DNA of 64,000 nt from a virus, in the IMG/VR virus record IMGVR_UViG_3300050821_001265, positions 1-64,000 of that record; one strand, 5' to 3'. A program made the position numbers and the translations under genes. The notes beneath the pieces were generated by a model, which had not been told where the DNA came from, did no database searches, and worked only from the letters and a program-made list of their open reading frames with translations. Positions 2,781-33,916 of the stretch are shown one piece after another. Positions within the stretch are counted from its first letter, which is position 1; the number at the start of each line of letters is the position of its first letter.

Positions 2781-5165
2781 ATGTCGGACCGCAAGCGCGA
2801 CGGAGCCAAATACGCAGAGGGTCTCTATAAAAATATTCCGCCGCTCCGCGCCTATATAGAGCGGATCGGAGCGGAGGAATTAAATTTCCGCCGCTTTATG
2901 AAGCGGCTTTATTTTAATCACTACTACGCGGAAAAATGTACGATTTCAATCACGAACGAAGGTGACATAAAGGTCTCTGCGCCTAACGCGATAGATGTTA
3001 GCGAGTTCAAGCCTACGTCCGAAGAAGCTTCCGAGATCAAGGCAGCGCTAGCCGAAGTCATGAAGGACTGGCCAACTTGCGTACCTACAACTGACGCTGC
3101 GGTATCTCGACTCATCCGCGAGCAAAATCTTAACCGGGACGATGTGTACATATTCTACACGCGTAAGCCGGAAGCGAAAGGATCAGACGTCATATTCGTT
3201 CAGTATCGCGTGATAATTGACGGCAAAAAGAACTACATTCCGTATTCTTATTGGAGTCATGGTAAGTGGCTACGCATGGAGCCTGAAGGTCCGCTTCCGT
3301 TTTGGAAGCCGCGTGAGAAGACCAAGAATTTAATCATGGTACATGAAGGCGCGAAGACTGCGCGCTATGTGACTGACTTGCTAGGCGACAAGAAGCGACT
3401 AGCAAGTCATCCATGGGGCGAGCGTCTCGCGGAGTATGAGCACTGGGGAATGATCGGCGGGGCATTATCGCCCCATCGATCAGACTATGAGGAGATAAAG
3501 CAAGCGCAGCCAACGCAGCTAGTTTATTCCTGCGATAATGACGACAATGGTAAATCGGTTCTTCAGCGGTTCTCTTCCTTTGTGCGGTTGAAGTTAACTG
3601 GGATTGCATACGACAGCCGTTTCCCACCAGCGTGGGACCTAGCTGATCCTATGCCAGAAACTCTATATGATTATGATCAAAAGAATCAACTACAATATCG
3701 CGGTCCTGCGCTAACTGAGTTTGAAAAGCCAGCCACATGGGCGACAGAGACCATCCCAACTGAAGGAAAAGGAAGGCCCAACTATATAATACGTTCGGAC
3801 TTCGCTTCTGAATGGTATCATTGCGTTAAGCCAGAAATATTTATTCATGGTAAACACTCACACATTATGTTCTCCGCTTCCGAGTTCAATAATTATGTCC
3901 GTCCGTTCTCCAACGTAAATGATACTGCGTCTCTGCTATTAGCCTCCGACGGTAGTAAAGCGGTGGATATGATCTATTCTCCAGCGCACCCTCCGGGTCC
4001 ATTTCTTTCTACAAAGCAGAGAGGAATTAACACACACAAGGGAACGACTATTGTTTCCGCCAAGAATGCTACGGATGAGGATGCGAAGCCATTTATTGAA
4101 TTCATGGAGTATCTAGTTCCTGATAAAACAGATCGTGATAATTTGCTACGATGGTGTTTTACGCTTCTCGCTAGACCGGACGTGAAGATGCACTATGGCG
4201 TCCTTCTTATCAGCGAGGGTCAAGGCAAAGGAAAGTCTACGCTTGGCGAAAAAATACTAGGTCCGTTAGTCGGTAAGCACAATATGTCGTCGCCAGGAGC
4301 GGGTGAAATAGTTGATTCGGCTTTTAATGATTGGTGCGCGCATAAACGCCTTGCGGTTGTACATGAGATTTATGAAGGCCATTCTTCAAAAGCGTATAAC
4401 AAACTAAAGAGTATAATTACAGATGCTACAATCTCTATCAATAAAAAGTATCAAGCGCCATACGAGATCGAGAATTGGCTTCATATCTTCGCTTGTAGTA
4501 ACTCAGAACGCGCTCTGCATCTATCAGATGATGATCGGCGCTGGTTCATCCCAAAGATAACTGAGAGCAAGAAGCCTCCAAAATGGTGGGAGGATTTTCA
4601 TCACTGGCTAAATGACCAAGGCGGATTGTCCATCATAAAATGGTATGCTGAAAAATGGATCAATAAAACTACTCCAGTACAGAGTGGCGACTACGCTCCA
4701 CCGAGCGACGCGAAGCATGACGTTATCCGCGCGGGATATTCTCAAGGCCAACTATTGGCTATTGAATTATTTGATCATCTACAGAGCGAATATCAAAATA
4801 AACCGTTTGTGATATTTGATCGTGATGTACAGACTGCTATTAAATATTTCATACATGGTGGCCATCCATCTCAGTTCCTAGAAAAGCCGCTGGCGATCCG
4901 TAAGCTAGCGAAGTCCGCTGGGTTACTTATAGCTCGTGAGCATCTTCGGTCTACTCATATTCGTATCATAACAAATGATCCGGATATTGCTAATACAACG
5001 AAATGGGAGCCTCATAATTGGATACCAATTTGGCGCCGTGAAACAGACGGTAAGCGGATCAAAAATGAGAAAGGTGGTATGAAGATTGACGCTATAGATG
5101 AAATAAAAGAGATACGAAAGAAGATCAAGGAAGAGACCGGAATGATAGATGAAGTACCGATGTAA
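2781..5165 (+). CDS. TOPRIM primase / SF3-type helicase (DUF5906-like)
   Basis: 794 residues; the start has GGGAGG 7 bases upstream. A TOPRIM-like module is seen at about residues 185-260: an invariant-Glu-like VHEGAKTA strand and SCDNDDNGKS, matching the DxD pattern of primases. The C-terminal half is a superfamily 3-type helicase. Its Walker A is GQGKGKST (about residue 480), its Walker B-like strand RLAVVHE, and its sensor-type motif C ends in FACSN. These proteins open the origin and prime DNA synthesis. It is the first rightward gene, as expected for the early replication operon. Its coding sequence holds several hairpins (2841-2874, 2890-2907, 3374-3409, 3451-3482). Confidence 0.85.
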   Translation: MSDRKRDGAKYAEGLYKNIPPLRAYIERIGAEELNFRRFMKRLYFNHYYAEKCTISITNEGDIKVSAPNAIDVSEFKPTSEEASEIKAALAEVMKDWPTCVPTTDAAVSRLIREQNLNRDDVYIFYTRKPEAKGSDVIFVQYRVIIDGKKNYIPYSYWSHGKWLRMEPEGPLPFWKPREKTKNLIMVHEGAKTARYVTDLLGDKKRLASHPWGERLAEYEHWGMIGGALSPHRSDYEEIKQAQPTQLVYSCDNDDNGKSVLQRFSSFVRLKLTGIAYDSRFPPAWDLADPMPETLYDYDQKNQLQYRGPALTEFEKPATWATETIPTEGKGRPNYIIRSDFASEWYHCVKPEIFIHGKHSHIMFSASEFNNYVRPFSNVNDTASLLLASDGSKAVDMIYSPAHPPGPFLSTKQRGINTHKGTTIVSAKNATDEDAKPFIEFMEYLVPDKTDRDNLLRWCFTLLARPDVKMHYGVLLISEGQGKGKSTLGEKILGPLVGKHNMSSPGAGEIVDSAFNDWCAHKRLAVVHEIYEGHSSKAYNKLKSIITDATISINKKYQAPYEIENWLHIFACSNSERALHLSDDDRRWFIPKITESKKPPKWWEDFHHWLNDQGGLSIIKWYAEKWINKTTPVQSGDYAPPSDAKHDVIRAGYSQGQLLAIELFDHLQSEYQNKPFVIFDRDVQTAIKYFIHGGHPSQFLEKPLAIRKLAKSAGLLIAREHLRSTHIRIITNDPDIANTTKWEPHNWIPIWRRETDGKRIKNEKGGMKIDAIDEIKEIRKKIKEETGMIDEVPM
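3374..3409 (+). repeat. Intragenic hairpin, 11 bp perfect
   Basis: TGACTTGCTAG/CTAGCAAGTCA around a 14-nt loop, inside the primase-helicase gene. One of the series of long hairpins in early genes. Confidence 0.8.
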
Positions 5166-5179
5166 AAAGGGAGAACATC

Positions 5180-5341
5180 ATGACTGGGACCAAACCTAAA
5201 TGGGAATTTGTAAATGAAGAGGAGGGAAGCTACACAGAGAGGCTAGACGTTCCAGGCGGTTGGCTGTATAGAATGGTTTTGAAGGAGTCAGAGGCAAACT
5301 TTGCGGTTGTATTTGTTCCACGTCCGGATCACATATCATGA
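5180..5341 (+). CDS. Small hypothetical protein
   Basis: 53 residues, preceded by AAAGGGAG and ending in an ATGA overlap with the next gene. That coupling and its codon pattern support it as real. It is acidic and mixed, with Trp near both ends, and has no recognised motif. Confidence 0.7.
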   Translation: MTGTKPKWEFVNEEEGSYTERLDVPGGWLYRMVLKESEANFAVVFVPRPDHIS

Positions 5342-5907
5342 ACGACCATCCATCAAACCCAGCAATCAGCCGTCTACGCGAGCGCACCGCGTACCTCCGC
5401 GATTTGCATCTCCGTATCAAAGACACGGAAATGCAACTCTCTGCACTCCGCGCCGAAGCGCGCCAGCTAAGCGAACATGAACTAGTAGAGATGTTCAATG
5501 AGGCGGGAGCCGACAGCATCGGGCTTCCACCACTGGGAAATCTCCCAGGAGTGGAAGCCGAACTACGTCCGTTCTACTCCGCGAACATCGCAGCCTCCTG
5601 GGATGAGGAACGTCGTGAAGAAGCCTTCACGGCGCTCCACAACGCCGGTGCCGCCGATCTCATTAAGACCAGAATCACACTCGACTTCCCGCGTGACTCC
5701 CGCGCGGCGGTTGTTGCGACCGTTAAATGGCTACAGGAGCACGCAAAAGGCGCTTCTGTAGCCATTAAAGACAGCGTACACGCCTCCACCTTAACCGCCT
5801 GGGTGAAGGAGTGCTTCGAGAAGGGTCGCGCTAATGACCTCCCTCCACTAGATGTCATTGGAGCATCCACAGGGTGGAACGTAATCCTAAAAGATCGAAA
5901 GGAATAG
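5338..5907 (+). CDS. Conserved phage protein of unknown function
   Basis: 189 residues. The N-terminus (about 1-45) is an Arg/Glu-rich helix likely to form a coiled coil. The remainder carries a pattern I associate with a family seen beside phage replication genes: LPPLGNLPGVEAELRP, SWDEERR, then a beta-alpha region with DSVHASTLTAW. It has no catalytic signature. It is translationally coupled to both neighbours, between the primase-helicase and the likely ssDNA-binding protein, so a replication accessory role is plausible. Confidence 0.7.
   Translation: MNDHPSNPAISRLRERTAYLRDLHLRIKDTEMQLSALRAEARQLSEHELVEMFNEAGADSIGLPPLGNLPGVEAELRPFYSANIAASWDEERREEAFTALHNAGAADLIKTRITLDFPRDSRAAVVATVKWLQEHAKGASVAIKDSVHASTLTAWVKECFEKGRANDLPPLDVIGASTGWNVILKDRKE
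5522..5559 (+). repeat. Intragenic hairpin, 9+6 bp
   Basis: GGCTTCCAC/GTGGAAGCC, a 2x2 mismatch, then CTGGGA/TCCCAG around a 4-nt loop. Inside the 5338 gene. Confidence 0.8.
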
Positions 5908-5910
5908 ATC

Positions 5911-6690
5911 ATGGCAAGCAAAAGCAACAATACTGCAGTAGCAAAACAGGATCAATCTGCTAACGCACTTATTGATCCTGAACTGATGAAGCAGATCGAA
6001 GCTGATTCTGGTCTCGGAGTATCGGACCGCGCAGAAGATCGCATACAGGCTTGGGTGAAAGTTCTTCATCAACTTTCGCCAGAGATGAACCCGCGTGATC
6101 CGGACTTCGTGAAGGATGCAAAACCAGGAGACATATGGATCAAGGCCCAAAATCTCCTGGTCCCAGGAGACAAGGGTATCATCTTCCAGCAATGCGCGTA
6201 TCAACTCCGTTGGGTCGAATGGCCTGGCGCGGTCGGGAGCAGCGGCCAACCAGTCGCGCGCTACGATAAGGCGCCACCAAATTGGGAGTTCGGTGGCATT
6301 GTGACTGATGACGGTCACCATATCATCGAGACCAGGTATCATCTGGGTATCGTCTACGCGGATGGTCTCGATCCGTTCCCGGCGCAAATTGCGTTCTCTT
6401 CCACCGGTGCTCCGGTATCAATAAATTGGAGCAATATACAGAAGCACAAGAAACTACCAAATGGGAAGATGGCGCCAGCTTATCTATCGCTCTACCGTCT
6501 GACGACGATAGAGCGGTCAAATGAAAAGGGTCGCTGGTTTTTACTTGATCCAAAAGATGCCGGCCATGCTTCATCTGATCAGATCAGATTAGGTATGGAG
6601 GTCTCCCACGACATCAGCGAACAAAAACTCAAGATGGGAGAAGGCGAAAGCGGCGACCGTCAATATGCATCCGAAGAGATGCCATTATAG
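5911..6690 (+). CDS. Conserved phage protein, possible ssDNA-binding protein
   Basis: 259 residues, starting after AAAGGA. The middle contains a Trp-rich beta domain (WVEWPGAVG, PPNWEFGG) that could be OB-like. The extreme C-terminus is acidic and ends EEMPL, which resembles the acidic Pro-hydrophobic tip of bacterial SSB proteins that recruits partners. Together with its position in the replication operon this suggests ssDNA binding. The fold is not recognised with confidence. Confidence 0.6.
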   Translation: MASKSNNTAVAKQDQSANALIDPELMKQIEADSGLGVSDRAEDRIQAWVKVLHQLSPEMNPRDPDFVKDAKPGDIWIKAQNLLVPGDKGIIFQQCAYQLRWVEWPGAVGSSGQPVARYDKAPPNWEFGGIVTDDGHHIIETRYHLGIVYADGLDPFPAQIAFSSTGAPVSINWSNIQKHKKLPNGKMAPAYLSLYRLTTIERSNEKGRWFLLDPKDAGHASSDQIRLGMEVSHDISEQKLKMGEGESGDRQYASEEMPL

Positions 6691-6708
6691 CAACTCGTGG
6701 TCCGTGCG

Positions 6709-6843: not shown

Positions 6844-7769
6844 CCGTTCATATTGTAGGCGCGGGTTTAGCAGGTCTCCTCGCAGCCAACATGCTAAACA
6901 AACTCGATCCGCAAGTTTTTGAACGTCAGCTTAAACTACCAAATAACCATAGTGCTGTCCTGAGATTCAGGACCAGCGCTATAGGTGATGTGTTAGGAAT
7001 ACCATTCCGTCAAGTGACCCTCGTCAAGAGCATCCAACCTTGGAAGAACCCAGCAGCGGACGCTTTAGCCTATAGCATGAAGATCGGAGGCGAGAGCCGC
7101 AGCGATCGTTCTATCAACTCCGGTGAATTAGTTGATACGCGGTGGATCGCGCCTCCCAATTTGATAGAACTTATGTCAAAGGACATAAATTCGATCAACC
7201 TCGGAACGCCTTACCCCTTCAATGAAATGAAGGGGCAAGGAGTGCCGATCATATCCACAATCCCGATGCCTGTGCTAATGGATGAATTGAATTGGCCAGA
7301 CAAGCCAGAGTTCCGCTTCATGCATGGTTACAATATCAGCGCCGACATCGAGCGCTGTAACGCCTATGTGTCTCTCATGGTCCCTAGTCCGGCCTATCCG
7401 TTCTCGCGTATCTCTATCACAGGCTCCCAACTAATTGTGGAAATCCCACAATGCGATGGCAGCTTCGAGGTTGACGCGCGGACCTGGGCAACGATGGCCG
7501 CTTCGCTCCTCGGGATAGAAATAGAACGCGTGGGCAACGTGCGTAGCCTCCGTCAGACCTACGTTAAAATACTCCCGGTGGATGATGGCGTCCGTAGGGA
7601 GTTCATCTATTGGGCATCGAAAGAATACAACATCTATTCCCTTGGGCGCTTTGCTTGCTGGCGACCTGGCTTGCTCCTTGATGACTTAGTCAAGGATGTA
7701 AGACTAATCGAAAGCTGGATAACGCGCCGCAAGGATCACTACGCAAGAGCAATCGCTGCTCGTGCGTAG
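6840..7769 (+). CDS. FAD/NAD-binding Rossmann oxidoreductase-like protein
   Basis: 309 residues. ATG 6840 is chosen because GGAG lies 6 bases upstream and the Rossmann strand starts immediately after. The N-terminus HIVGAGLAGLLAA is a GxGxxG dinucleotide-binding motif followed by the expected helix, as in FAD-dependent monooxygenases and amine oxidases. The rest does not match a subfamily I can name. It stands just upstream of a MazG-like hydrolase and a ThyX variant and a few genes before a glycosyltransferase-like protein. It could therefore act in nucleotide or base modification; that is inference. Two hairpins (6951-6980, 7209-7240) lie in its coding sequence. Confidence 0.75.
   Translation: MTVHIVGAGLAGLLAANMLNKLDPQVFERQLKLPNNHSAVLRFRTSAIGDVLGIPFRQVTLVKSIQPWKNPAADALAYSMKIGGESRSDRSINSGELVDTRWIAPPNLIELMSKDINSINLGTPYPFNEMKGQGVPIISTIPMPVLMDELNWPDKPEFRFMHGYNISADIERCNAYVSLMVPSPAYPFSRISITGSQLIVEIPQCDGSFEVDARTWATMAASLLGIEIERVGNVRSLRQTYVKILPVDDGVRREFIYWASKEYNIYSLGRFACWRPGLLLDDLVKDVRLIESWITRRKDHYARAIAARA
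7209..7240 (+). repeat. Intragenic hairpin, 12 bp with one mismatch
   Basis: CCTT, an A-C mismatch, then CCCCTTCA pairing TGAAGGGG, with a 6-nt loop. Inside the FAD-enzyme gene. Confidence 0.8.
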
Positions 7770-7919
7770 TGATAACTGAAAGGAGGTGGTTCAAATGGGT
7801 ACATGCTCGCGGTCTCAGGGACCCCTAGTGAGGAGCGCCGCGAGCATCAAAGTCTGAAGCACTTCTACCGGCGGTGGGCAGGCCACTGCTCACCGCCACC
7901 CAATCAAATGGAGAGAGCA
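7770..7919 (+). other. Structured 150-nt leader before the MazG-like gene
   Basis: No convincing gene. Two strong hairpins occupy it: a perfect 10-bp stem 7803-7812/7838-7847, and a 12-bp stem 7870-7897 with one G-T pair and a GCCA loop. Neither is followed by a T run, so these are not intrinsic terminators. GAGAG before ATG 7920 is the ribosome site. Confidence 0.6.
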
Positions 7920-8466: not shown

Positions 8467-9212
8467 AAGTATCGCTTATCGACTATACCGGCGCCGGAAC
8501 CTCCGACCCGGCCGACTACGCCGCGTCAGTTCTAATCTTCACGAAGAACACACGTTTGCTAATGGCTCCAGCATTGATGAAAGACATACAAGGTTGGAGC
8601 CAAGATCGCAAAACCAAAGAACTGGAGTACATGGCGCACACGCTCCCTAGCTCCCATGAGTTCGTTCACTTCACGTTTATAATCGAAGGCGTGACGCGCG
8701 CTTTCACTCATCAGTTGGTACGCACGCGAAATGCTTCGTATGCGCAGCAAGCTATGCGTATCCTCAACGTCAAGGGTTGGGAGTATGATACCGGACCTAC
8801 GATTGAAGCTTGCGACCTGTGTCTTGATCGTTACCGCTCCGCAATGGCCGACATCGCTACCGCCTATGACTTTCTAATCGAGCATGGCGCTGCAGTTGAG
8901 GACGCTCGCGGCGTACTGCCGACGAACATCCTCACTAATATTGTTATGGGTATCAATATGAGGAATTTCGTGGGCCTGGTCAAGAAGCGATCAGGTCCAA
9001 GAATTCAATCGGAGTATCGTGCCGTGCTCGAACAAATGAGAGAACTAACAATGGGTATTTACCCATGGTTAGTTCTCTTCCTTGATCGAACAAAGGACCG
9101 CGCCTTAACTGATTTGGATAAAGAGATCAGCCAAGAGTCCGATCCAGTCAAACGGATGCGAATGATGAAGCTTGTCGATCAAGTTCGTACTGCTGACGTT
9201 GATGTAGACTAA
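8463..9212 (+). CDS. thyX: ThyX-family flavin-dependent thymidylate synthase variant
   Basis: 249 residues, close to the family's usual length. The helix HEFVHFTFIIEGVTRAFTHQLVR is typical of ThyX. Canonical ThyX carries RHRx7S, binding FAD and dUMP. Here the segment reads RTRNASYAQQAMR: the His is Thr and the last Ser is Ala. ThyX normally methylates dUMP using methylene-tetrahydrofolate and FAD. Loss of the signature Ser suggests altered chemistry (for example a hydroxymethylase), a different substrate, or a tolerant active site. A 40-bp hairpin (9039-9078) lies near the 3' end. Confidence 0.8.
   Translation: MKVSLIDYTGAGTSDPADYAASVLIFTKNTRLLMAPALMKDIQGWSQDRKTKELEYMAHTLPSSHEFVHFTFIIEGVTRAFTHQLVRTRNASYAQQAMRILNVKGWEYDTGPTIEACDLCLDRYRSAMADIATAYDFLIEHGAAVEDARGVLPTNILTNIVMGINMRNFVGLVKKRSGPRIQSEYRAVLEQMRELTMGIYPWLVLFLDRTKDRALTDLDKEISQESDPVKRMRMMKLVDQVRTADVDVD
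9039..9078 (+). repeat. Intragenic hairpin, 18 of 19 bp
   Basis: AGAGAACTAAC/GTTAGTTCTCT, one A-G mismatch, then ATGGGTA/TACCCAT with a 2-nt centre. Inside the ThyX-variant gene. It is nearly a perfect 40-bp palindrome. Confidence 0.9.
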
Positions 9213-9862: not shown

Positions 9863-10265
9863 TATTGACGGGACCCTATCTAACTCGCGCTGGCGAGATG
9901 GATTGATCGGCGCTGTCAGCTGGGATGAGTATCACGAGAAGTCTCAGTATGATGAACCCTATCAAAACATGATAGGGCTCATCAGATCATTGCATGAACG
10001 CGAATACTATATCGTGGGTGTATCCTCGCGCCCGGAAAAGTTCCGCAAGATGACGATCGAGTGGCTCTTGAAACATCAAGTGCCGCTCGATGACCTTCTG
10101 CTTAGACCGAACAACAACCATCGTCCTTCGCCAGAACTGAAACCCTATATGGTATCCATGAGAATGGCCTTCAATGATATCGCGTTCGTCTTTGACGACC
10201 GTGAGGACGTGATCGCGGCGTTCCGCGAAAGAGGTGTAGACGGATTACAGGTGATGCCATCATGA
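9840..10265 (+). CDS. HAD-family phosphatase (polynucleotide kinase 3'-phosphatase-like)
   Basis: 141 residues with a GTG start at 9840, supported by GGGAG 7 bases upstream; the earlier ATG at 9813 lies deep in the previous gene. HAD motif I is DIDGTL at residues about 8-13, motif II is GVSSRP, and motif IV is FDDRED. This resembles the phosphatase part of T4 PseT-type enzymes without the kinase domain. It could remove 3'-phosphates from nucleic acid ends, or phosphates from modified nucleotides given the neighbouring genes. Confidence 0.8.
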   Translation: MGRTILTDIDGTLSNSRWRDGLIGAVSWDEYHEKSQYDEPYQNMIGLIRSLHEREYYIVGVSSRPEKFRKMTIEWLLKHQVPLDDLLLRPNNNHRPSPELKPYMVSMRMAFNDIAFVFDDREDVIAAFRERGVDGLQVMPS

Positions 10266-10426: not shown

Positions 10427-11235
10427 AGCTAGCCATCACGATGATATCCAATCGGCCGGAGACTGCGCATGAGCGATGGCTCGCTTCTGTCCATAAGCTC
10501 AACAAGCTTAGGGACAAAGTCGATACATCCTTCAGCTTCGTCTTTGAAGCGCCGTTTACTCAGGCGTTAGCGCTACCCTTCCAAAAACTTGGAAGGGTAA
10601 CGCTAAAGCCGAAGTCAAAAGCGCCAATCTACAACTGGTGGCCAAATCGAAATCAAGCTTGCGCTAACGCGCCGGATGCGGAATACTGGCTTATGACGGA
10701 TGATGACTTCCGCTTTGGCGGACCTACTCCGCTTGGATACGAAAGCTGGCGACGCTATTACGATGCGATCAAATATCTTGACGCTAATCCATCGTGCGGC
10801 GGCGTTTGCTGTCTGCCGTTCTTGGGAGGTTCCGCGAGCGGCTCAAAGATCATGGTAGCTCATCGCGAATTGTTTGCCCTCAGTCGCGGTCTCCTCCTCC
10901 GCAACGTCGGCAACTTCCTCTATAGCTTAAATGTCTTCAACCTCCCAGGAGCATTAGACGAACCTGCTGCGTGTTTTTCACGGATTGAGCTAGGCTACTA
11001 TTTCGCGCGGACCTTTAACACTCCGACCGTATTGCCGCCAACGCATAAGGTGCAGCCAGGCAATACTCATCCGGCTTACAACTCCGATACGATTAACACA
11101 GTCGGCATTGGTAGTGTTATTCGTAAGCGCTACAACGATCCGGACTGGGATCATAACACGCGACGCATTCCAATCGGCTGTTTAGAGATGCATTTGAAAG
11201 CATCTCCAAACAGCGTTCTAGGAAAACGACAATGA
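10423..11235 (+). CDS. Glycosyltransferase-like protein (GT-A type)
   Basis: 270 residues from ATG 10423. The N-terminal strand KLAITMISNRP opens a nucleotide-sugar-binding-like fold, and YWLMTDDDFRFGG (about residue 98) is a DxD-type metal/sugar-nucleotide motif preceded by a strand, as in GT-A glycosyltransferases. A later NTHPAYNSDT segment is of unknown role. In phages with hydroxymethylated pyrimidines such enzymes glycosylate DNA. Here the ThyX variant and phosphatase nearby make that a testable idea. A 20-of-22-bp hairpin (10563-10610) and another at 11177-11214 are embedded in the gene. Confidence 0.65.
   Translation: MKLAITMISNRPETAHERWLASVHKLNKLRDKVDTSFSFVFEAPFTQALALPFQKLGRVTLKPKSKAPIYNWWPNRNQACANAPDAEYWLMTDDDFRFGGPTPLGYESWRRYYDAIKYLDANPSCGGVCCLPFLGGSASGSKIMVAHRELFALSRGLLLRNVGNFLYSLNVFNLPGALDEPAACFSRIELGYYFARTFNTPTVLPPTHKVQPGNTHPAYNSDTINTVGIGSVIRKRYNDPDWDHNTRRIPIGCLEMHLKASPNSVLGKRQ
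10563..10610 (+). repeat. Intragenic hairpin, 20 of 22 bp
   Basis: The two arms flank a 4-nt loop (10585-10588). The core TACCCTTCCAA/TTGGAAGGGTA is perfect, with single mismatches farther out. Inside the glycosyltransferase-like gene. Confidence 0.9.
11177..11214 (+). repeat. Intragenic hairpin, 14 of 15 bp
   Basis: GCTGTTT, an A-C mismatch, then GAGATGC/GCATCTC around an 8-nt loop. Near the 3' end of the glycosyltransferase-like gene. Confidence 0.85.
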
Positions 11236-12065: not shown

Positions 12066-12595
12066 TAGTGTTAGCCTTCGACACTGAGACTTCGGGTCTT
12101 GTTAGCAACCGGAGTATTGCTGATAAGTTCCTTCCTCACATCATTGATTTTTTCGCAATCTTGGTAGACCTGTCCAACGGACAGGTACACCAAGAATACG
12201 AAACCCTCATCAATCCGGGTATTGCCATTGATCAAGAGATCACGGACATTACCAAATTAACTGATGCGGACCTTAAAGACGCTCCGAAGTGGGAGAAGGT
12301 CGCGGATCGCATAGAGGCGCTCATAAAGAGCGCTCCAGCTGTCCTTGCTCACAACGCAGCTTTCGATCAGGAGATGGTGGATATCGAGTTCGCGCGGCTA
12401 GGCCGCAAGATCGACTGGCCTCCGCTTATCTGTACGGTTGAACAATCCCGCCATCTTCATTCCCACAATATCAACCTCAACGATCTACACGAAGAATTGC
12501 TTGGTGAGCGTTTTACTGACGCGCATCGGGCAAAACCAGACACGCTCGCTACGGTCCGGGTTGCTATTGAGATGTATAAGCGAGGGATGATATGA
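12062..12595 (+). CDS. DnaQ-like DEDDh 3'-5' exonuclease
   Basis: 177 residues. ExoI is FDTETSG at residues 6-12, ExoII is LAHNAAFD (about 97-104), and ExoIII is the DAHRAKPDT segment with the H-x4-D spacing of the DEDDh class. These enzymes proofread for C-family polymerases. It lies two genes before the DnaE-like polymerase, so it is probably the separate proofreading subunit. Confidence 0.9.
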   Translation: MIVLAFDTETSGLVSNRSIADKFLPHIIDFFAILVDLSNGQVHQEYETLINPGIAIDQEITDITKLTDADLKDAPKWEKVADRIEALIKSAPAVLAHNAAFDQEMVDIEFARLGRKIDWPPLICTVEQSRHLHSHNINLNDLHEELLGERFTDAHRAKPDTLATVRVAIEMYKRGMI

Positions 12596-12810
12596 CTGAG
12601 TTTGACGCGCTCAAGGCTGCGCGCGAGATATTAGCAAGTATGATCGAGACGGAAAGCGCACTTGTACATATGGAGCGCGATCTATTAGTTGAAGTTGAAA
12701 TATCAGAGCGCCGCCTCAATCACGTTCGTAAAGTTCTTGGATTCATACGCGAGTATGCAATCGCTCCGCAGCGCGCGAAAGTCGCGGAGCTAGCGGAGGG
12801 TTCAAAATGA
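12592..12810 (+). CDS. Small coiled-coil protein
   Basis: 72 residues, ATGA-coupled to the exonuclease and the polymerase genes. A long Glu/Leu/Arg-rich helix (about 15-55) is likely coiled coil. Its place between exonuclease and polymerase suggests a bridging or accessory role; this is inferred from position only. Confidence 0.65.
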   Translation: MTEFDALKAAREILASMIETESALVHMERDLLVEVEISERRLNHVRKVLGFIREYAIAPQRAKVAELAEGSK

Positions 12811-21328: not shown

Positions 21329-21427
21329 GAAGTCTTAGCCTCCTGCGCCCTCGTCAGAGGAGGGCGCAGTGGGCGTGGACTGATGCTAGCCATTCCGGTT
21401 AGCACGCACGCTTTGGAGACTACGCAA
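21329..21427 (+). other. Intergenic hairpins
   Basis: No gene. A perfect 10-bp hairpin CTGCGCCCTC/GAGGGCGCAG (21343-21369) without a T run, a smaller TGCTA/TAGCA stem, then GGAG for the next gene. Confidence 0.6.
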
Positions 21428-22357: not shown

Positions 22358-22819
22358 ATGGCCAAGCGCCAACCGAAGTTCCAGAACGTTGAGACGAACC
22401 TCGCTGATGCCATCAGCGAGGCTTTCGGAAATATGAACGAACTATCCAGCGAATGTCGCGACGTTTGCGACAATATGCCGGATAGTCTCCAATCGTCCGC
22501 GCGTTACGAAGCGCTCGACAACTCTGCGTCGGAGTTAGAAAAGGATGAGCCTGACTTCCCGGATGCGCTCCAGGAATTGAAGGTTACAATCCAGCGTCCG
22601 ACGAAACTACGCAAACAATCGCGGCGGGACCGCGCGAACGAAGCCGAGACCGTCCTGCGTAACTGCGTTGACGCTATCCAATCTTGGGTAGACGAAGCAC
22701 CTAACACTGGCGTTGATACGACCGATGCCCGTGAAGACGCCGCGCAGGAATTACGGGACGCTTGCGAGGAGTTAGCCGATGCTATCGGCAACTGCGAATT
22801 TCCCGGCATGTTTGGATAA
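22358..22819 (+). CDS. Acidic helical hypothetical protein
   Basis: 153 residues from ATG 22358 (GGAG upstream; an upstream ATG at 22328 is less likely). Rich in Glu, Asp and Ala, with periodic Cys (CRDVCDNM, RNCVD, DACEE, GNCEF) along predicted helices. No family is recognised. A perfect 11-bp palindrome (22399-22421) is inside. Confidence 0.65.
   Translation: MAKRQPKFQNVETNLADAISEAFGNMNELSSECRDVCDNMPDSLQSSARYEALDNSASELEKDEPDFPDALQELKVTIQRPTKLRKQSRRDRANEAETVLRNCVDAIQSWVDEAPNTGVDTTDAREDAAQELRDACEELADAIGNCEFPGMFG
22399..22421 (+). repeat. Intragenic palindrome, 11 bp arms
   Basis: CCTCGCTGATG and CATCAGCGAGG separated by one base, in the 22358 gene. Confidence 0.85.
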
Positions 22820-22829: not shown

Positions 22830-23081
22830 ATGAGACTTATAATTGTATTTTGCGTACTCGCTGCCACATCGGCAGCGAGCGCGCAACAGACTGTTATCCG
22901 CGACGGTCGCGGGAATACGGTAGGAACAGTGACCACCGACAGCGCGGGCACCCAGACCTTTCGTGGCGCCAATGGAAATACCACGGGCACCTCGACCCGC
23001 GATAGCGCCGGTACAGTAACCTATCGCGATGCTCGTGGCAATACGGTAGGCACCGCGACCCGGAGCGGAGGCCGCCGATGA
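22830..23081 (+). CDS. Secreted repeat protein
   Basis: 83 residues from ATG 22830 (GGAGAG upstream). Signal peptide to about residue 19 (AATSAASAQ), then three to four copies of a ~18-residue unit of the form GNTxGTxTxDSAGTxTyRD. Such repeats would form a small beta-sheet or beta-roll. Similar proteins exist in alphaproteobacterial genomes, so it may be host-derived. Confidence 0.7.
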   Translation: MRLIIVFCVLAATSAASAQQTVIRDGRGNTVGTVTTDSAGTQTFRGANGNTTGTSTRDSAGTVTYRDARGNTVGTATRSGGRR

Positions 23082-23651: not shown

Positions 23652-23753
23652 GTAGCGACTTCATGCCGCCGAGTGCGACGGCGGCATCTGGGCGCAACCC
23701 CGTAGCCTCGCCAGCTACAGTACCACCCAACTCTCCAAGAAAGGAGACTAACT
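23652..23753 (+). promoter_or_regulatory. Structured leader with AGTGCGA-loop hairpin
   Basis: A perfect 9-bp stem 23663-23671/23679-23687 closes a 7-nt loop AGTGCGA. GGG/CCC and GTAGC/GCTAC small hairpins follow. There is no T run. The same loop, closed by the same G-C pair on a different stem, recurs at 25718-25724. Possibly an RNA-protein binding site. Confidence 0.6.
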
Positions 23754-25704: not shown

Positions 25705-25748
25705 GCTCATATAGCGGAGTGCGACCGCTATATGGTCGTGCGATCTAA
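25694..25748 (+). promoter_or_regulatory. Two-stage perfect hairpin with AGTGCGA loop
   Basis: Outer stem 25694-25701/25741-25748 (8 bp, perfect), a 6x6 internal loop, inner stem 25708-25717/25725-25734 (10 bp, perfect), and terminal loop AGTGCGA. The loop is identical to that in the 23663 hairpin. It precedes the DUF932 gene by about 30 bases, with no T run. Confidence 0.75.
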
Positions 25749-25780: not shown

Positions 25781-26830
25781 ATGTTGAAAGGAATATCGCT
25801 GGTTGAGCTTGCGAAAAAAATTCAAGCCAATCAGGAATTGAAGCGAGACTATATCGCGGACACTTCGGGTACTGCGATGATCATACAAGAAGACGGAAAG
25901 CCTGTCCTGGAACTTCCGGACCATGGGACCTTCCCGATACTTCCCTTGGCGCACGATCAAATTGGCGGCAAGACCGGCATCCCGGCTAAGTATTACGATA
26001 GGATGTTAACCGATGATCCTCATCTGTTGGCCGCCAACGTCAATACTTGGTTTCGCCGCGACCCGAAGAAGCAAATGATACGGACGCTGGGCGGTGACGC
26101 TCGCGCGTTCCTATCTAATCGCTACCAGCGCATCGAGAATGAGGAGATGGCCGAAGCTGCACTCCCGGTACTCAAAGAGTTACCGGGAGTGCAGATAGTC
26201 TCTTCAGAAGTGACGGACCGTCGCATGTATATTCACTTCGTTGTTCCTACGATTAAGGGCGAAGTGAAGAAGGGCGACATCGTCCAAGCGGGCGGTATCA
26301 TATCTAACTCTGAAGTTGGTTGTGGGTCAGCGTCGGTCTCCGGACTTCTATGGAGACTGGTATGCCTCAACGGCATGAAGACGACGGAGCAATTCCGTCG
26401 CCATCACGTAGGTCGTCAGGTTGATGACTCCGAGGAGTTGTGGGCGGACGATACCCGCGCGGCGGACGACAAGGCCATTCTTCTTAAGGTCCGCGATATG
26501 GTCCGGGCTGTCGTTGATGAGACGCGGTTTCGGTCGAACCTTGCGAAAATGCAAGGTTTGACCGAAGGTCGAATCACCGGCTCAGTTGAGAAGGTGGTAG
26601 AAGTATTGGCCGCTAAAGTAGGGGCCAATGAAACGGAGCGAAGCGGCATCCTCAAGTCGCTTATCGAGGGAGCCGACACTTCCGCTTGGGGATTGCTCAA
26701 CGCGGTAACGGCGCAAAGCCACACCGCCAAGAGCTACGACCGTGCGGTTGAACTTGAGGCGGCAGGAGGCGTTCTGCTTGATCTCAGCAAGACTGAATGG
26801 AAAGAACTCCTCCATGCCGGTGCGAAGTAA
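25781..26830 (+). CDS. DUF932-like phage/plasmid protein
   Basis: 349 residues after AAGGAGAG. The recognisable DUF932 features are a beta-rich N-terminal half with FLSNRYQRIENEEMAEAALPVL, the GCGSASVSGLLWRLVCLNGM segment (about 184-203) and a helical C-terminus. Members are common on phages and plasmids, but no biochemical role is established that I can cite. Its coding sequence contains strong hairpins (26159-26192, 26529-26566). Confidence 0.8.
   Translation: MLKGISLVELAKKIQANQELKRDYIADTSGTAMIIQEDGKPVLELPDHGTFPILPLAHDQIGGKTGIPAKYYDRMLTDDPHLLAANVNTWFRRDPKKQMIRTLGGDARAFLSNRYQRIENEEMAEAALPVLKELPGVQIVSSEVTDRRMYIHFVVPTIKGEVKKGDIVQAGGIISNSEVGCGSASVSGLLWRLVCLNGMKTTEQFRRHHVGRQVDDSEELWADDTRAADDKAILLKVRDMVRAVVDETRFRSNLAKMQGLTEGRITGSVEKVVEVLAAKVGANETERSGILKSLIEGADTSAWGLLNAVTAQSHTAKSYDRAVELEAAGGVLLDLSKTEWKELLHAGAK
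26159..26192 (+). repeat. Intragenic hairpin, 12 bp perfect plus inner stem
   Basis: GCACTCCCGGTA/TACCGGGAGTGC, with an inner CTC/GAG. In the DUF932-like gene. Confidence 0.9.
26529..26566 (+). repeat. Intragenic hairpin, 15 bp plus one G-T pair
   Basis: TTCGGTC, one G-T pair, then AACCTTGC/GCAAGGTT around a 6-nt loop. In the DUF932-like gene. Confidence 0.85.
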
Positions 26831-27527: not shown

Positions 27528-27565
27528 TGACGGCTGTAGTTGGGAGACCCCAGCTACAGCCGTCA
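27528..27565 (+). repeat. Intergenic 17-bp hairpin
   Basis: 12 bp TGACGGCTGTAG/CTACAGCCGTCA, one T-G pair, then TGGG/CCCA around a 4-nt loop. Its position in an 81-bp gap suggests RNA processing or control. There is no T run after it, so it is not a standard terminator. Confidence 0.8.
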
Positions 27566-27585
27566 ACTATAACAGGAGGCGCTAG

Positions 27586-27840: not shown

Positions 27841-29423
27841 GCTATGTTCCGAAGTATGAACCTTATTCGCACCAACGGGAAGCGTTGGCGCGAATAAAGG
27901 ACCGTCCTGCGTTCGCGCTTCTTATGGCAATGCGAACCGGAAAAACAAAAGTCGTTTTAGATGACTTTGGAAGGTTAGAGTATGAAGGCCGATGTGGATC
28001 GGCCCTCATCATCGCGCCAGCCGGCGCTTACAAGACATGGGAGAAGGAAATATCAATACACGTTGGCGCGCCGCTAGCGGAGCGGCTTCTAACCTATACT
28101 TGGTCGGCTTCTGCTCAATCTCAGAAGGCTCAAAAAGTCCAAGCGGACTTTATGAACCAAACGAACAAGCCGCGCATCTTGCTAATGAACGTAGAAGCGC
28201 TGAGCGGAGTGACGCGTGCTCGCGATCTGGCTCAGGCATTCCTGAAACAGACGCGAGACCCGATGTGCGCGATCGATGAGAGTACCACGATACGCGGGGC
28301 GGATAGTTTGCGGACGAAGTTTGTAATTGACAAACTCCGTCCGTTAGCTGCCTACCGGCGAATCATGTCGGGTCTCCCGTCTCCTAACTCTCCGTTTGAT
28401 CTGTGGGCGCAATTCTACTTCTTGGACCCAAAGATTATCGGACATTGGACCTTCAAGACATTCCAGAATCACTTCGCCGAGATACAGCAGATATGTATGA
28501 TCCCGGCGCGCGTGCTAAAGGAAAAGCTACACCGGATGGTAGGGGCCAAGCCATTCAATATCTCCGGTATTGGTATGGTGAATGCCCACGATCTATCCCA
28601 CGGGATGCTGATTGAACAAATATCAAAGCGCGGAGGCTACGTGCCACGCGTCCCGGTCGTAAAGGCGTTCCGAAACGAGGAGGAATTGCGCGACCTGATT
28701 GCGCCCTACTCTTACCGCGTCAAGCTCAGCGATTGTTATGACCTTCCGCCGAAGGTCTACAGTATGCGCGAGGTGGAGCTAACGGCAGAACAAAAACGGG
28801 TCTACGCAGAAATCAAACAGTTCGCGTTCGTTGAACTCAACGAACTAGAACACGTTACCGCGAACCATGTTCTAACTCGTATCATCCGTCTACACCAAGT
28901 CCTTTGCGGCCACGTGCGCGACGATAGCGGAATCATTCGAGACGTTCCTGAAAACAGAACGTCTCAATTGATTGAGCTACTCAGCGAGCACGACGGTAAG
29001 AGTATCACCTGGTGTTCATATAGTCACGATATTGAAAAGCTAACGGTCGCGCTGACGAAAGAGTTTGGCGAAGGAAGCGTAGCGCGGTTCTGGGGCGGCA
29101 ACCAGTCCACTCGGGAAGCGGAGGAACTTCGCTTCCGAGAGGATCAAAATTGCCGCCACATGCTCGCTACGCCTGGAGCGGGACGCTTCTCACGTATGTG
29201 GGCTATCGCGGACCTTGTCGTGTACTATTCTAATACGCCTGATCTTGAACATCGCTCGCAAAGTGAGGATCGCGCGCAAGGGTTGGATAAAGTCAACTCG
29301 GTACTCTATGTTGATCTTATCGTTCCGGGGACTGTCGATGAAAAGATCATCAACGCGCTCCGTGCCAAGATCAATATGTCTTCGACTATCACAGGCGATA
29401 ACTATCAGGAGTGGCTAATATGA
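27837..29423 (+). CDS. SNF2-type superfamily 2 DNA helicase/translocase
   Basis: 528 residues from ATG 27837. Motif Q is YSHQREAL, Walker A is AMRTGKTK (about residues 28-35), motif Ia LIIAPAG, Walker B CAIDEST (DE), motif III MSGLP, and the C-terminal lobe has TWCSYSHDIEKL, TPGAGRFSRMWAIADLVVYYSN and a motif VI-like HRSQSEDRAQGLDK. This is the compact SNF2 type found in phages, used in recombination or replication. It is shorter than cellular SNF2 proteins. Confidence 0.9.
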   Translation: MSYVPKYEPYSHQREALARIKDRPAFALLMAMRTGKTKVVLDDFGRLEYEGRCGSALIIAPAGAYKTWEKEISIHVGAPLAERLLTYTWSASAQSQKAQKVQADFMNQTNKPRILLMNVEALSGVTRARDLAQAFLKQTRDPMCAIDESTTIRGADSLRTKFVIDKLRPLAAYRRIMSGLPSPNSPFDLWAQFYFLDPKIIGHWTFKTFQNHFAEIQQICMIPARVLKEKLHRMVGAKPFNISGIGMVNAHDLSHGMLIEQISKRGGYVPRVPVVKAFRNEEELRDLIAPYSYRVKLSDCYDLPPKVYSMREVELTAEQKRVYAEIKQFAFVELNELEHVTANHVLTRIIRLHQVLCGHVRDDSGIIRDVPENRTSQLIELLSEHDGKSITWCSYSHDIEKLTVALTKEFGEGSVARFWGGNQSTREAEELRFREDQNCRHMLATPGAGRFSRMWAIADLVVYYSNTPDLEHRSQSEDRAQGLDKVNSVLYVDLIVPGTVDEKIINALRAKINMSSTITGDNYQEWLI

Positions 29424-29772: not shown

Positions 29773-29784
29773 CAAGGAGCAATC

Positions 29785-30126: not shown

Positions 30127-30132
30127 TAGTTG

Positions 30133-30215: not shown

Positions 30216-30238
30216 CAGCTACCAAAGGAGAGAAGCAA

Positions 30239-30783: not shown

Positions 30784-30798
30784 GAAGAAGGAGAGCCC

Positions 30799-32523
30799 AT
30801 GTTTACGCGACTGTGGCGCGCCTTCCTAGCGCGCTGGGGACGGCTATGGCCGTTTCCTTCCCTAGTCCCGGAGACCGCGCCGGTAGGCGTCCCGCAGCCC
30901 GTAGGAACCTCCCGGAGCGTTCCGGAGCCTCCCGGGCTAGGTCCGGCTATCCGCCTCCCGGAAACACCCGTAGGAGCCTCCCTAGCCGTCCCGGAGCCTC
31001 GCCCCGTAGGAGCCTCCCTAGCCGTTCCGGAGCCTCCCAGGCTAGGTCCGGCTAGCCGCGCCGGGAAAGCCTCCGGACGCGCCCCGGAGCCCCAGCGCGA
31101 CCCCTTCCCGCCCCCACCGCCTCCCGAAGATGGCTGCTACCTTACGGACGATATGGGCCCGGAGGAACAGCGCCGGAGGTTACGGGAGCAGTATGAGAAG
31201 GAGCGGCGGAAGCACGATAAGTTTGTGGAGCCGAAAGGTCCCCATCCGGTTAAGCGCCAGCGCGTCCCGGTAGTAATGGATGAAGAGGAGTTAGACGCGC
31301 ACGAACCGACGCACCATGTTCCTGAAAAGGAAAGAGCGCGGCCCATCCCTGCGCTCGATGGTCCGCTGGTACCTGAAGGCTTTTTAATTGACCAACATCA
31401 CGAAGGCGGAAAGGTCCTATTTGAAGAGGCTGAGTCCTGGGGTCAGTTTAATTTCCGCGATACTATCCTTGGCCAACTAGAGCGCTATTTTGTTTATCTG
31501 CGCCGTATGCGCCGGACTGATAAGTCAGCCTATGATTTGTATCGCGCTGTCGGCGCCACCATTGAGCCATATCTGTCCAATGTTTGGCATGGCGAGGCTG
31601 ACGCTGGGGACGCAGAACTGCTGTATAAATTCTCCGAGGAGACCATTGAGTATATGAAACGGGACGAACTATCCCCAGCCTTCATAAGAGACCGTCCAGC
31701 CTTCGGCTGTGTAACTTATGGAACCGATCCGCTTTCAGAAAGCCGCGAGTTGACCCAATCAACTAAAACAAAACGAGTTCTTTGGATACCCAAGTTCATG
31801 TACTTCACGAAATTCGAGAAGCCGCCAATCAAGTGGCAACCGATGTCCAGAGTCAAGGGCGACGTGTACGGTCTAACCGTATGGTGGGACCGTCCTCACG
31901 ATCCGAGGGAGTATCGACGCAAGTATGGCGTACCTCAAGACTTCGGGGTTTGGGTAAGCAAAGATGGTAAAACAATCCGCATCCTTAAGCAGCATCTGAA
32001 GTGGAACCGTTGGGCGTACCCTCACGACTTTAAGGACTGGGCGAAAAATCGCGGCGTGGATGTACAAGTTTTTCTTCGCCATCTGTTCATCATGGCGGTA
32101 AGACATGCGGAAGACATCGAGCTATCCATGGTCCGCGTCAACGTACACAAGCGCGACCTAACCGCCGTGTTCGGAGTAAACGTGGAGCGTCTCGCCTACT
32201 TCTTCCAGGATCGTGACTTTGCGCTTACGGCTACAGGTAGCCGCAAGCGTATCTTCCATCTCGTCAAACCGTATCAACGCAAGGACGGCAGCTGGACAAA
32301 GATGTACTTTGCCGGGGAGCGCGAGTTTGAATGGGCAGGGTACCACGTTCAGCTAACGGTTCCGGGTCTACATCATCAAAGCCTAAACACTTTCCATTAT
32401 GGTAGCATCGACAGCGGCAGAGTTAAGGATCCAGACAACCCAAAGAAATACGTTAGTACTGAATACATGGCCAAGATATTCGCGGAGTACATCCGTACTG
32501 GCAAGATTAGAAAAGGGGACTAG
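30799..32523 (+). CDS. Large hypothetical protein with Pro-rich repeat N-terminus
   Basis: 574 residues after AAGGAG. Residues 1-110 are low-complexity Pro/Val/Ala/Gly repeats (units such as PVGASLAVPEP) encoded by direct DNA repeats. Residues about 120-180 are highly charged. From about 195 on there is a folded domain with many Trp/Tyr (FGVWVSKDGKTIRIL, WNRWAYPHDFKDWAKNRG, LRHLFIMAVRHAEDIELSMVRV). No catalytic motif is recognised. It is one of the larger early or middle proteins. Confidence 0.6.
   Translation: MFTRLWRAFLARWGRLWPFPSLVPETAPVGVPQPVGTSRSVPEPPGLGPAIRLPETPVGASLAVPEPRPVGASLAVPEPPRLGPASRAGKASGRAPEPQRDPFPPPPPPEDGCYLTDDMGPEEQRRRLREQYEKERRKHDKFVEPKGPHPVKRQRVPVVMDEEELDAHEPTHHVPEKERARPIPALDGPLVPEGFLIDQHHEGGKVLFEEAESWGQFNFRDTILGQLERYFVYLRRMRRTDKSAYDLYRAVGATIEPYLSNVWHGEADAGDAELLYKFSEETIEYMKRDELSPAFIRDRPAFGCVTYGTDPLSESRELTQSTKTKRVLWIPKFMYFTKFEKPPIKWQPMSRVKGDVYGLTVWWDRPHDPREYRRKYGVPQDFGVWVSKDGKTIRILKQHLKWNRWAYPHDFKDWAKNRGVDVQVFLRHLFIMAVRHAEDIELSMVRVNVHKRDLTAVFGVNVERLAYFFQDRDFALTATGSRKRIFHLVKPYQRKDGSWTKMYFAGEREFEWAGYHVQLTVPGLHHQSLNTFHYGSIDSGRVKDPDNPKKYVSTEYMAKIFAEYIRTGKIRKGD
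30898..31060 (+). repeat. GC-rich direct repeats within the 30799 gene
   Basis: 34-bp units at 30967-31000 and 31003-31036 differ at one base. A third, diverged copy is at 30898-30931. Each outer copy is followed by a shared GCTAGGTCCGGCTA segment, so the larger unit repeats after 105 bp. The repeats keep the reading frame. Confidence 0.8.
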
Positions 32524-32525
32524 GA

Positions 32526-33203
32526 ATGAAACAAGGAGATAATCGTGGCCGCTGGGGTTCTGCGAGTAAGCGCGCAGCTGGACCGCATATGATCACTACC
32601 GAGGCGCAAACCTTAGATGAAGTTCTGGATATTTTGAAAGACAAGCAGCGCCGCAAGCCGTCACCGCCGACCCTACGTCAAGAGTTAGGTTTGAGCAAAC
32701 TTCAACGACGCAATGTAACTCTACCTATGGGCGGAGTCAAATTGACTCCGATAAAGTTACATCAACAAAATCGCGGACAGACATCAGTAATCGGACATCA
32801 GCCATGGACCGAGGCAGAAGTGGTAGAGGCGTATCGGTCGGGAATTGATAGGATAGTTGATCTAGGCAAACTGGCTAAGGTTCCGCTCAATCGAGTTCGC
32901 GCATGGTTGTACAAATTTGGAGTTTGGGAGATACCCGAAGTAGTCTCTCTCGAAAGATATCAGGATATGCTAAAGAAACAGAAAGAACGATTGGCCATTA
33001 GGAGAGCCAAGTCTAAGGATATACAGGAACGGCGGACGATTGCAATGCGTCGCCGCAAGAAAAATAATCTGCTTTGTGCTCCTTATGAAGAGACGATATC
33101 TGAATGGGAATTGAAAAGTAGCATAGAGTACACAGAACAACAAATCAAAAAGACTAATCAACTACACAAAGACCGTCTTGTCTGGATAAAGGAGAACGAA
33201 TAA
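32526..33203 (+). CDS. Basic hypothetical protein with HTH-like segment
   Basis: 225 residues. A disordered basic N-terminus, then PWTEAEVVEAYRSGIDRIVDLGKLAKVPLNRVRAWLYKFG (about 94-131), which reads like a homeodomain/terminase-small-type HTH, and a long Lys/Arg/Glu helix to the end. It could be a DNA-binding protein; a small terminase is one possibility, not proven. Confidence 0.55.
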   Translation: MKQGDNRGRWGSASKRAAGPHMITTEAQTLDEVLDILKDKQRRKPSPPTLRQELGLSKLQRRNVTLPMGGVKLTPIKLHQQNRGQTSVIGHQPWTEAEVVEAYRSGIDRIVDLGKLAKVPLNRVRAWLYKFGVWEIPEVVSLERYQDMLKKQKERLAIRRAKSKDIQERRTIAMRRRKKNNLLCAPYEETISEWELKSSIEYTEQQIKKTNQLHKDRLVWIKENE

Positions 33204-33258
33204 GGCTGCAAGCTACGAGATGGCCAAACAACTTCAATTACTACCGGGAGGTGTCGTG

Positions 33259-33459
33259 ATGATTCACCAAAGAGCGCTAGTGTACGCTTTTATAATCGCA
33301 ATGATGATTATCGCGCTCTGGCTTCTATCTGATTGTAGCTCTGACTATAGCCGCGAGCGTAACAGCGGTGGAATGAAAAATGGAGTCATCACTGATCTAC
33401 ATAAATACTGTTTGGAGTTTCCAAAGGACGCTGCGTGTCAAGGAAAGGAGAGCAAATGA
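33259..33459 (+). CDS. Small membrane protein
   Basis: 66 residues from ATG 33259, favoured over 33220 because GGGAGG precedes it by 8. One hydrophobic helix (residues about 7-24), then a Cys-containing polar tail (LSDCSS, KYCLEFPKDAAC) suited to a periplasmic disulfide. Lipoprotein-like LSDC is at the helix end. Confidence 0.65.
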   Translation: MIHQRALVYAFIIAMMIIALWLLSDCSSDYSRERNSGGMKNGVITDLHKYCLEFPKDAACQGKESK

Positions 33460-33713
33460 TGGACGATCTAACTGAATGGAAGAAGCGCGCGGATGGCGGC
33501 GATAGCCGCTATGCGATAGCGCTAGCACTAATGGCTATTGCGGAAGCTATCAGTGATAAGGGAACAAAGGAGGTAGGAATCATAGACCATGTTAGCTCAT
33601 CGCTAGACGATAAGTTTGATACGTTGATTCGAGTCATGGAGAGACTACCAGAGGAGGAGGGTGATACGCCACTATCACCTCCTCTGAAGCGGCGATGGTG
33701 GCATCGAACCTAA
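33456..33713 (+). CDS. Small helical hypothetical protein
   Basis: 85 residues from ATGATG at 33456 (AAAGGAGAG upstream). Mostly helical, with a basic RRWWHRT end. An AG-rich hairpin (33649-33686) is near its 3' end. Confidence 0.65.
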   Translation: MMDDLTEWKKRADGGDSRYAIALALMAIAEAISDKGTKEVGIIDHVSSSLDDKFDTLIRVMERLPEEEGDTPLSPPLKRRWWHRT

Positions 33714-33761
33714 AGACGCCTTCGGAATACTAACTACCAACCACAACCAGGAGTAAAGCAA

Positions 33762-33875
33762 ATGGAAGAGTTGAGAGAGCGCATCAACAATCTCTATGGC
33801 GCCTTGCTTTTGAGCGCCATAAAAATAAAAGAGTTGGAGGAGGAAAAAAAGAAGCGAAATGGAAGCAAACGATAA
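33762..33875 (+). CDS. 37-residue coiled-coil peptide
   Basis: AGGAG upstream. Glu/Lys/Leu-rich helix. An 8-bp hairpin (33795-33821) lies in it, and the intrinsic terminator follows 8 bases after its stop. Confidence 0.6.
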   Translation: MEELRERINNLYGALLLSAIKIKELEEEKKKRNGSKR

Positions 33876-33883
33876 TAAGATTG

Positions 33884-33916
33884 AACCCCAGGCGGTCTCC
33901 CGTCCTGGGGTTTTTT
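33884..33916 (+). terminator. Strong rightward intrinsic terminator
   Basis: AACCCCAGG (33884-33892), an inner CGG/CCG pair, CCTGGGG (33904-33910), then six T (33911-33916). It ends the main rightward transcript. A frame opening at 33859 reads through it, but the GTG at 33934 is the better start for the next gene. Confidence 0.85.

Follow-up and report, generated by a model that had tools for sequence, protein, structure and literature searches.

Hairpins of differing sequence inside the early genes of a phage lineage, and how they may arise

How does an uncultured tailed phage with double-stranded DNA come to carry dozens of hairpins, each different in sequence, inside its protein-coding genes, and why in one block of those genes only? 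The question is raised by IMG/VR virus record IMGVR_UViG_3300050821_001265, of whose 69,110 bases the first 64 kb (positions 1 to 64,000, hereafter the window) were analyzed. An earlier note, made by eye from the letters, had pointed to at least twenty-five hairpins within the genes of the rightward block and to nothing comparable elsewhere. As possible causes it had named template switching, perhaps by the phage's C-family DNA polymerase (DnaE), and selection for mRNA structure.

I will refer to two blocks of genes as early and late, a classification made from gene function. The early block (2781 to 34,300, plus strand) encodes, according to family matches, a DUF5906 primase/helicase-like protein, Pam3 gp33/gp34-like proteins, ThyX, a PNKP-like phosphatase, an RNase_T exonuclease, DnaE, a nuclease-like protein and an SNF2-type helicase, along with many products without an assigned family. 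The late block (34,630 to 63,888, minus strand) matches families of endolysin, tail fibre/baseplate, sheath, tape measure and head protease. A genome scan for the host of the phage gave distant matches only, and no close relative was found in INPHARED, where DnaE identity reaches 37% at best.

Hairpins in the early and late blocks

Inverted repeats were scored at every centre in the window (+1 for a match, -2 for a mismatch, loop of at most 15 nt), and those that do not overlap were counted. Between 2781 and 33,900 there are 55 with a score of at least 9, 36 of at least 10, 27 of at least 11, 17 of at least 12 and 7 of at least 14. From 34.6 to 64 kb, five reach a score of 9 and none reaches 10, 11 or 14. 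The expected numbers were taken from 60 rounds of shuffling synonymous codons within genes. The early genes contain 44 repeats at a score of at least 9, as compared to 2.38 ± 1.5 in the shuffles, 32 as compared to 0.83 at 10 and 25 as compared to 0.33 at 11. The corresponding numbers for the late genes are 4 and 2.35, 0 and 0.75, and 0 and 0.28, and even weak repeats (score of at least 8) are neither depleted nor enriched there (11 found, 8.9 expected). Hairpins in early genes are thus about 20 to 75 times more abundant than chance would provide, while the structural genes do not rise above chance and serve as a hairpin-free internal control. A first-order Markov control agrees with the shuffles (55 in the early block, 1.8 expected). 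The contrast that the earlier note had drawn by eye therefore stands, with early counts far outside the shuffled distribution and late counts at chance, and it is stronger than could be seen by eye. Of the 55, 49 lie entirely within open reading frames (ORFs), one crosses a stop codon, and five are intergenic.

No such early excess is seen in mirror repeats (1 early, 6 late) or short-range direct repeats (15 early, 14 late), and the excess is therefore specific to inverted repeats. It extends to loops of 16 to 30 nt and fades above 60 nt; long-range pairing was rejected, since the excess dwindles beyond loops of about 30 to 60 nt. The hairpins are discrete, and the gaps between them are close to random (coefficient of variation 1.17). 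Nine of the 36 that score at least 10 are perfect, and the longest arm is 25 bp. Mismatches in the full set of 55 are A-C (21), A-G (12), G-T (9), C-T (4) and other (6), so that 58% are of the transition type and the earlier description of them as mostly A-C or G-T is fair.

Several trivial sources can be set aside. The stretch of the window from 13,301 to 63,949 (50,649 bp) recurs, with no mismatches and two gaps, in an IMG/VR contig assembled from a different metagenome. The hairpins were thus assembled twice at the same positions, which rules out an assembly artefact. Only 6 of 1485 pairs of hairpins have a 9-mer in common, ruling out a repeat family or, as the earlier note had already argued from their differing sequences, a single mobile palindrome. 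Intrinsic terminators, which would have a U-tract after a GC stem at gene ends, are ruled out by the scarcity of T-rich flanks (1 of 55); terminator-like sites between 5.3 and 17.3 kb number below the shuffled mean. An Rfam search found no match to known structured RNAs.

Of the hairpins listed here from left to right, the first are at 3374–3409 (11-bp arms, perfect, loop of 14 nt), 5522–5559 (17 bp, two mismatches, loop 4), 5726–5766 (15 bp, one mismatch, loop 11) and 5947–5980 (10 bp, perfect, loop 14). Two are nearly contiguous, at 7161–7198 (17 bp, two mismatches, loop 4) and 7201–7248 (21 bp, three mismatches, loop 6), and the one at 7735–7773 (17 bp, one mismatch, loop 5) is that which crosses a stop codon. 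The thyX gene has a hairpin at 9039–9078 (19 bp, one mismatch, loop 2), followed by those at 9950–9984 (15 bp, one mismatch, loop 5), 10,056–10,091 (16 bp, two mismatches, loop 4), 10,563–10,610 (22 bp, two mismatches, loop 4) and 11,177–11,214 (15 bp, one mismatch, loop 8), and then by one in the exonuclease gene at 12,151–12,203 (25 bp, four mismatches, loop 3).

The DnaE gene (12,807 to 15,656, plus strand), from which the phylogeny and the recurrence of sites described below were derived, holds 10 hairpins. Perfect ones are found there at 13,294–13,326 (14 bp, loop 5), 13,748–13,770 (11 bp, loop 1) and 15,065–15,098 (13 bp, loop 8). Those with one mismatch are at 13,863–13,893 (14 bp, loop 3), 14,213–14,246 (14 bp, loop 6), 15,183–15,222 (16 bp, loop 8) and 15,257–15,294 (13 bp, loop 12), and those with three are at 13,524–13,564 (19 bp, loop 3) and 13,575–13,629 (25 bp, loop 5), the latter in a hot spot that encodes LGVDL..RLDREL.

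Beyond DnaE, hairpins occur at 16,003–16,036 (15 bp, one mismatch, loop 4), 16,087–16,121 (16 bp, two mismatches, loop 3), 18,153–18,184 (14 bp, one mismatch, loop 4), 22,399–22,421 (11 bp, perfect, loop 1), 22,850–22,886 (16 bp, two mismatches, loop 5), 26,157–26,194 (14 bp, perfect, loop 10) and 26,529–26,566 (16 bp, one mismatch, loop 6). The last are at 27,863–27,897 (15 bp, one mismatch, loop 5), 28,311–28,343 (14 bp, one mismatch, loop 5), 28,931–28,973 (17 bp, two mismatches, loop 9) and 32,222–32,249 (13 bp, one mismatch, loop 2). Intergenic examples lie at 21,343–21,369 (10 bp, perfect, loop 7), 25,708–25,734 (10 bp, perfect, loop 7) and 27,528–27,565 (17 bp, one mismatch, loop 4). 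All six hairpins that the earlier note had singled out are present, four with the same ends (9039–9078, 10,563–10,610, 13,294–13,326 and 15,065–15,098) and two (13,582–13,622 and 26,159–26,192) as the cores of 13,575–13,629 and 26,157–26,194.

Two intergenic hairpins (23,663–23,687 and 25,708–25,734) stand 5' of start codons and have the same 7-nt loop, AGTGCGA, on different stems; the remaining copies of AGTGCGA in the window are all in the late block. The pair may represent a separate regulatory element. The outer arms of the hairpin at 26,157–26,194 are the same as those of repeated CTGCACT...AGTGCAG palindromes in two related loci, L033 (10,213–10,239 and 7305–7331) and L031 (12,282–12,305 and 8120–8144), whose inner stems vary, with compensated changes between them. 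Next to the late block, two plus-strand genes (30,799–33,203; 574 and 225 aa) of no recognizable family lack excess folding, in contrast to the remainder of the early block.

Relatives and the history of single hairpins

Scanning IMG/VR with DnaE sequences yielded more than 100 related loci, and a tree was built from 62 DnaE proteins. If a locus is called hairpin-rich when it has at least 0.6 hairpins per kb, then 13 of the 28 loci in the supported group that includes the window are rich, as compared to none of the 34 elsewhere. Judged by this tree, hairpin richness is a heritable trait of the lineage. One phage of the poor group lacks hairpins altogether over 54 kb, and the outgroup phages VA-RY-3 and Pluto, both of which have DnaE, have 5 in 40 kb and 10 in 50 kb, respectively. 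(The gene order of Pluto resembles that of the window.) The earlier note had wondered about the C-family polymerase, but the mere possession of one does not cause the hairpins, because the hairpin-free sister clade shares the same DnaE.

The contrast between early and late blocks is present in four rich genomes, the window and three others. Since the ORF calls in GC-rich relatives include spurious antisense frames, the counts for the three are by block rather than by gene: 22 early hairpins (1.8 expected) and 5 late (4.7 expected) in G005, 29 (1.7) and 1 (2.8) in G007, and 31 (2.5) and 1 (1.3) in G008. The late blocks of G007 and G008 are about 79% identical and much of their early blocks about 84%. 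The late block has therefore long been inherited together with a rich block, yet is hairpin-free in both genomes, and a recent replacement of the late block was rejected on these grounds. In the rich genomes examined, early and late genes are on opposite strands and the skews at fourfold sites differ between the blocks, so that "early" is not separable from "orientation". Three poor genomes of the sister clade that were checked (G009, which is locus L042, G003 and G012) have most of their genes on one strand. The genes common to rich phages and absent from poor ones encode a late module and, in the early block, two small products of 99 and 154 aa without an assigned function, none of them telling.

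Single sites within DnaE are used again and again. Hairpin midpoints coincide within one codon across diverged phages 24 times, as compared to 4.0 with random shifts and 6.0 under a protein-matched null built from the predisposition of the individual proteins to hairpins. The shared midpoints occur in polymerases about 50 to 57% identical, with new stem sequences, and the region encoding LGVDL..VY..RLDREL has a hairpin, in several registers, in nine hairpin-bearing genomes. At the register near DnaE residue 262, compared in L013, L187, L033 and L019, all 48 cells are paired. Both members were altered in 6 of the 12 pairs, and in no pair was just one altered; such change in concert is what the earlier note had suggested looking for. 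In two loci 89.5% identical, L044 and L071, divergence peaks in the hairpin region, where the two genomes have different hairpins at the same position. Among relatives 97 to 98% identical, the hairpins are mostly unaltered, apart from one double change of G-C to A-T.

The hairpin arms in DnaE match consensus residues at 51 to 54%, as compared to 64% elsewhere, and single examples of conserved arms exist. In the window, the share of hairpins in the codon phase that least constrains the protein climbs with stem score from 29% (at least 9) to 53% (at least 12; 8 of 15), as compared to 26% in shuffles, a preference not seen in the relatives.

Some observations on the same loci may be noted. The differences between L044 (10,001–11,908) and L071 (8299–10,206) come as short synonymous runs of about 20 to 60 nt amid long identical stretches, outside hairpins as well as in them, and look like very short recombination tracts. 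The DnaE of L148 (8401–9810; also L144 to L147) has an in-frame insertion of about 410 aa that matches a Pfam intein splicing domain (E = 5e-21), and the DnaE matches of L182 and L194 are longer than expected.

DNA copying or selected structure

If the folding of mRNA were selected, G·U should outnumber A·C among mismatches on the coding strand. The hairpins of the window with a score of at least 10 have 16 A·C and 6 G·T, other rich phages have 21 and 19, and the overall tally of 25 G·T and 37 A·C does not favour wobble pairs. Relative to synonymous shuffles, folding gains almost as much on the antisense strand of the early block as on the sense strand (-4.21 kcal/mol per 120 nt sense, -3.67 antisense), as compared to -1.27 and -0.39 in the late block, and the gain is concentrated in the hairpins (-10.4 per 80 nt where one is present and -1.9 where none is). 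Of the mismatches in the window, 22 of 39 could be repaired by a synonymous change, as compared to 40% of random unpaired sites, and leaving such mismatches is predicted by decay but not by selection for pairing. The types of mismatch, the strand-equal folding, the discrete, randomly spaced hairpins and the unrepaired mismatches speak for a process at the level of DNA followed by decay.

I infer that the process is template switching during phage replication, in a lineage prone to it. That arm-to-arm copying of DNA created and maintains the hairpins seems to me about an even proposition; it is not proven, but fits better than selection for mRNA structure, because pairing is strictly Watson-Crick and symmetric between strands, because the hairpins are discrete and randomly spaced, and because stems turn over and change on both sides without intermediates. 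Template switches able to create and maintain hairpins have been proposed for RNA genes (PMC8794818). Here, chance would offer weak quasi-palindromes within coding sequence, and a short-range switch to the nascent or complementary strand would copy one arm onto the other, making the stem nearly perfect. Repeated copying would keep it so, with the arms evolving in concert, and purifying selection would retain only copies that the protein tolerates. Hairpins would then settle where complementary codons suffice to encode the peptides of both arms. Related phages would be struck repeatedly at the same sites, and hairpins no longer maintained would decay by ordinary substitutions.

The restriction to early genes could come about in two ways: switching might be set off by encounters of early transcription with the replication fork, or hairpins might form genome-wide and be purged from heavily translated late mRNAs. 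The first would rest on the opposed orientations of early and late genes in those rich genomes that were examined, and it is suggested by analogy with quasi-palindrome mutations in yeast, which were seen only when transcription was high and are influenced by the direction of replication (PMC3820800).

Several results weigh against copying by template switching. The hairpin-free late block, even when co-inherited as in G007 and G008, calls for a second factor, and a plain genome-wide mutational process fails on this account. Inverted copies from a single event were not found above reverse and complement controls (14 pairs and 19 triples, with few close rich pairs); the strongest hairpin-rich cases have no relatives at 90 to 99% identity in the comparison set. 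An asymmetry in conservation between donor and recipient arms was significant in DnaE but failed to hold in a broader set, and the window showed the reverse. The near-stasis of hairpins among relatives 97 to 98% identical also fits selection, and a strict requirement for double strands in RNA could imitate the lack of preference for G·U. Finally, most of the phage stems are imperfect, unlike the repeats of hairworm mitochondria discussed below, which are nearly all perfect and longer than 30 bp.

The competing cause named in the earlier note, selection for structured early mRNA, is possible but on the doubtful side. Stems of 10 to 25 bp at free positions would be sequence-independent double-stranded tags, used perhaps for RNase III-type cleavage that ends early expression, for protection from single-strand RNases or for ribosome pausing. 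No other reading explains directly the early-only distribution in four rich genomes, and the recurrence of sites with different stems is in keeping with it, as are arms in which most residues are consensus ones, encoded by synonymous codons that suit the pairing, and the slightly greater stability of the sense strand (-0.54 ± 0.27). It is weakened by the lack of preference for G·U over A·C, the synonymously repairable mismatches that remain, the nearly equal antisense gain, the lack of regular spacing and of an Rfam match, and hairpin-poor relatives whose homologous early genes manage without hairpins. The specific form in which any stem of at least about 10 bp marks an early transcript for timed destruction or protection, its presence selected and its sequence free to turn over, strikes me as rather unlikely.

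Strictly Watson-Crick, strand-symmetric pairing would also be expected of hairpins or cruciforms selected in the DNA of the early block, as sites of recombination, priming or nuclease recognition, but these have no common sequence or loop, are spaced at random and turn over fast, and no reason is known why they should be restricted to early coding DNA; I consider this improbable. The same low probability attaches to template switching throughout the genome, with formation in no way specific to a region and strong purging from late genes only. Late genes are usually those most translated, and the cytochrome oxidase genes of hairworm mitochondria are likewise spared, but purging would have had to remove even hairpins of score 10 from every late gene, tail-fibre-like genes included, without depleting or enriching the weak repeats. 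An assembly artefact, a mobile palindrome family or terminators, for which nothing speaks except the repeat structure itself, have practically no chance in view of the identical independent contig, the unshared sequences and the single T-rich flank.

Comparison with known systems

The genome-scale ordered RNA structure (GORS) of RNA viruses is also an excess of folding in coding sequence. GORS is diffuse and in RNA, whereas the phage hairpins are discrete features of a single block of genes, with Watson-Crick pairing only and no difference between the strands. Rickettsia palindromic elements, repetitive extragenic palindromic (REP) sequences and mitochondrial hairpin elements are palindromes, some of them inside genes, but they form sequence families and each phage stem is different. 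Closer are the template-switch mutations of E. coli, yeast and RNA genes (PMC7202029, PMC3820800, PMC8794818), in which imperfect repeats are perfected and two-sided changes appear without intermediates, tied in yeast to transcription and fork direction (PMC3820800). Those events are infrequent and were seen in assays or in reconstructed histories, whereas in the phage, where a single event was not caught, the product is dense in ordinary genes.

The same phenomenon in phages was not found in the literature searched (open-licence papers), and as far as I found, a comparable scale is reached elsewhere only by the "coding palindromes" in mitochondrial genes of hairworms (Nematomorpha; PMC6649704, also PMC10380579). 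There, too, many inverted repeats lie in conserved coding sequence, far above codon-shuffled controls, with some midpoints common to species that have different stems and others specific to a lineage; arms evolve in concert, some genes are spared, and no function has been shown. Template switching has been discussed for them, and they prefer the least constraining codon phase more at higher scores (PMC6649704).

The hairworm mechanism is not known and experiments with hairworms are hard, while the phage lineage makes the question testable: its sister clade has the same replication genes but no hairpins, and its own late block is an internal control. One may ask whether formation is mutational, whether it is tied to transcription or fork direction, and whether coding sequence can absorb palindromes that have no function. 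The case is also a caution that coding DNA may show two-sided covariation without any selected RNA structure. The phage hairpins work like the coding palindromes of hairworms, but I do not file them as a member of that system, because they differ in arm length (9 to 25 bp in a double-stranded DNA phage, up to 142 bp in hairworms), in their many mismatches and in a block-wise restriction: the genes spared in the phage form one block, the late one, and the trait is confined to one clade of the phage family.

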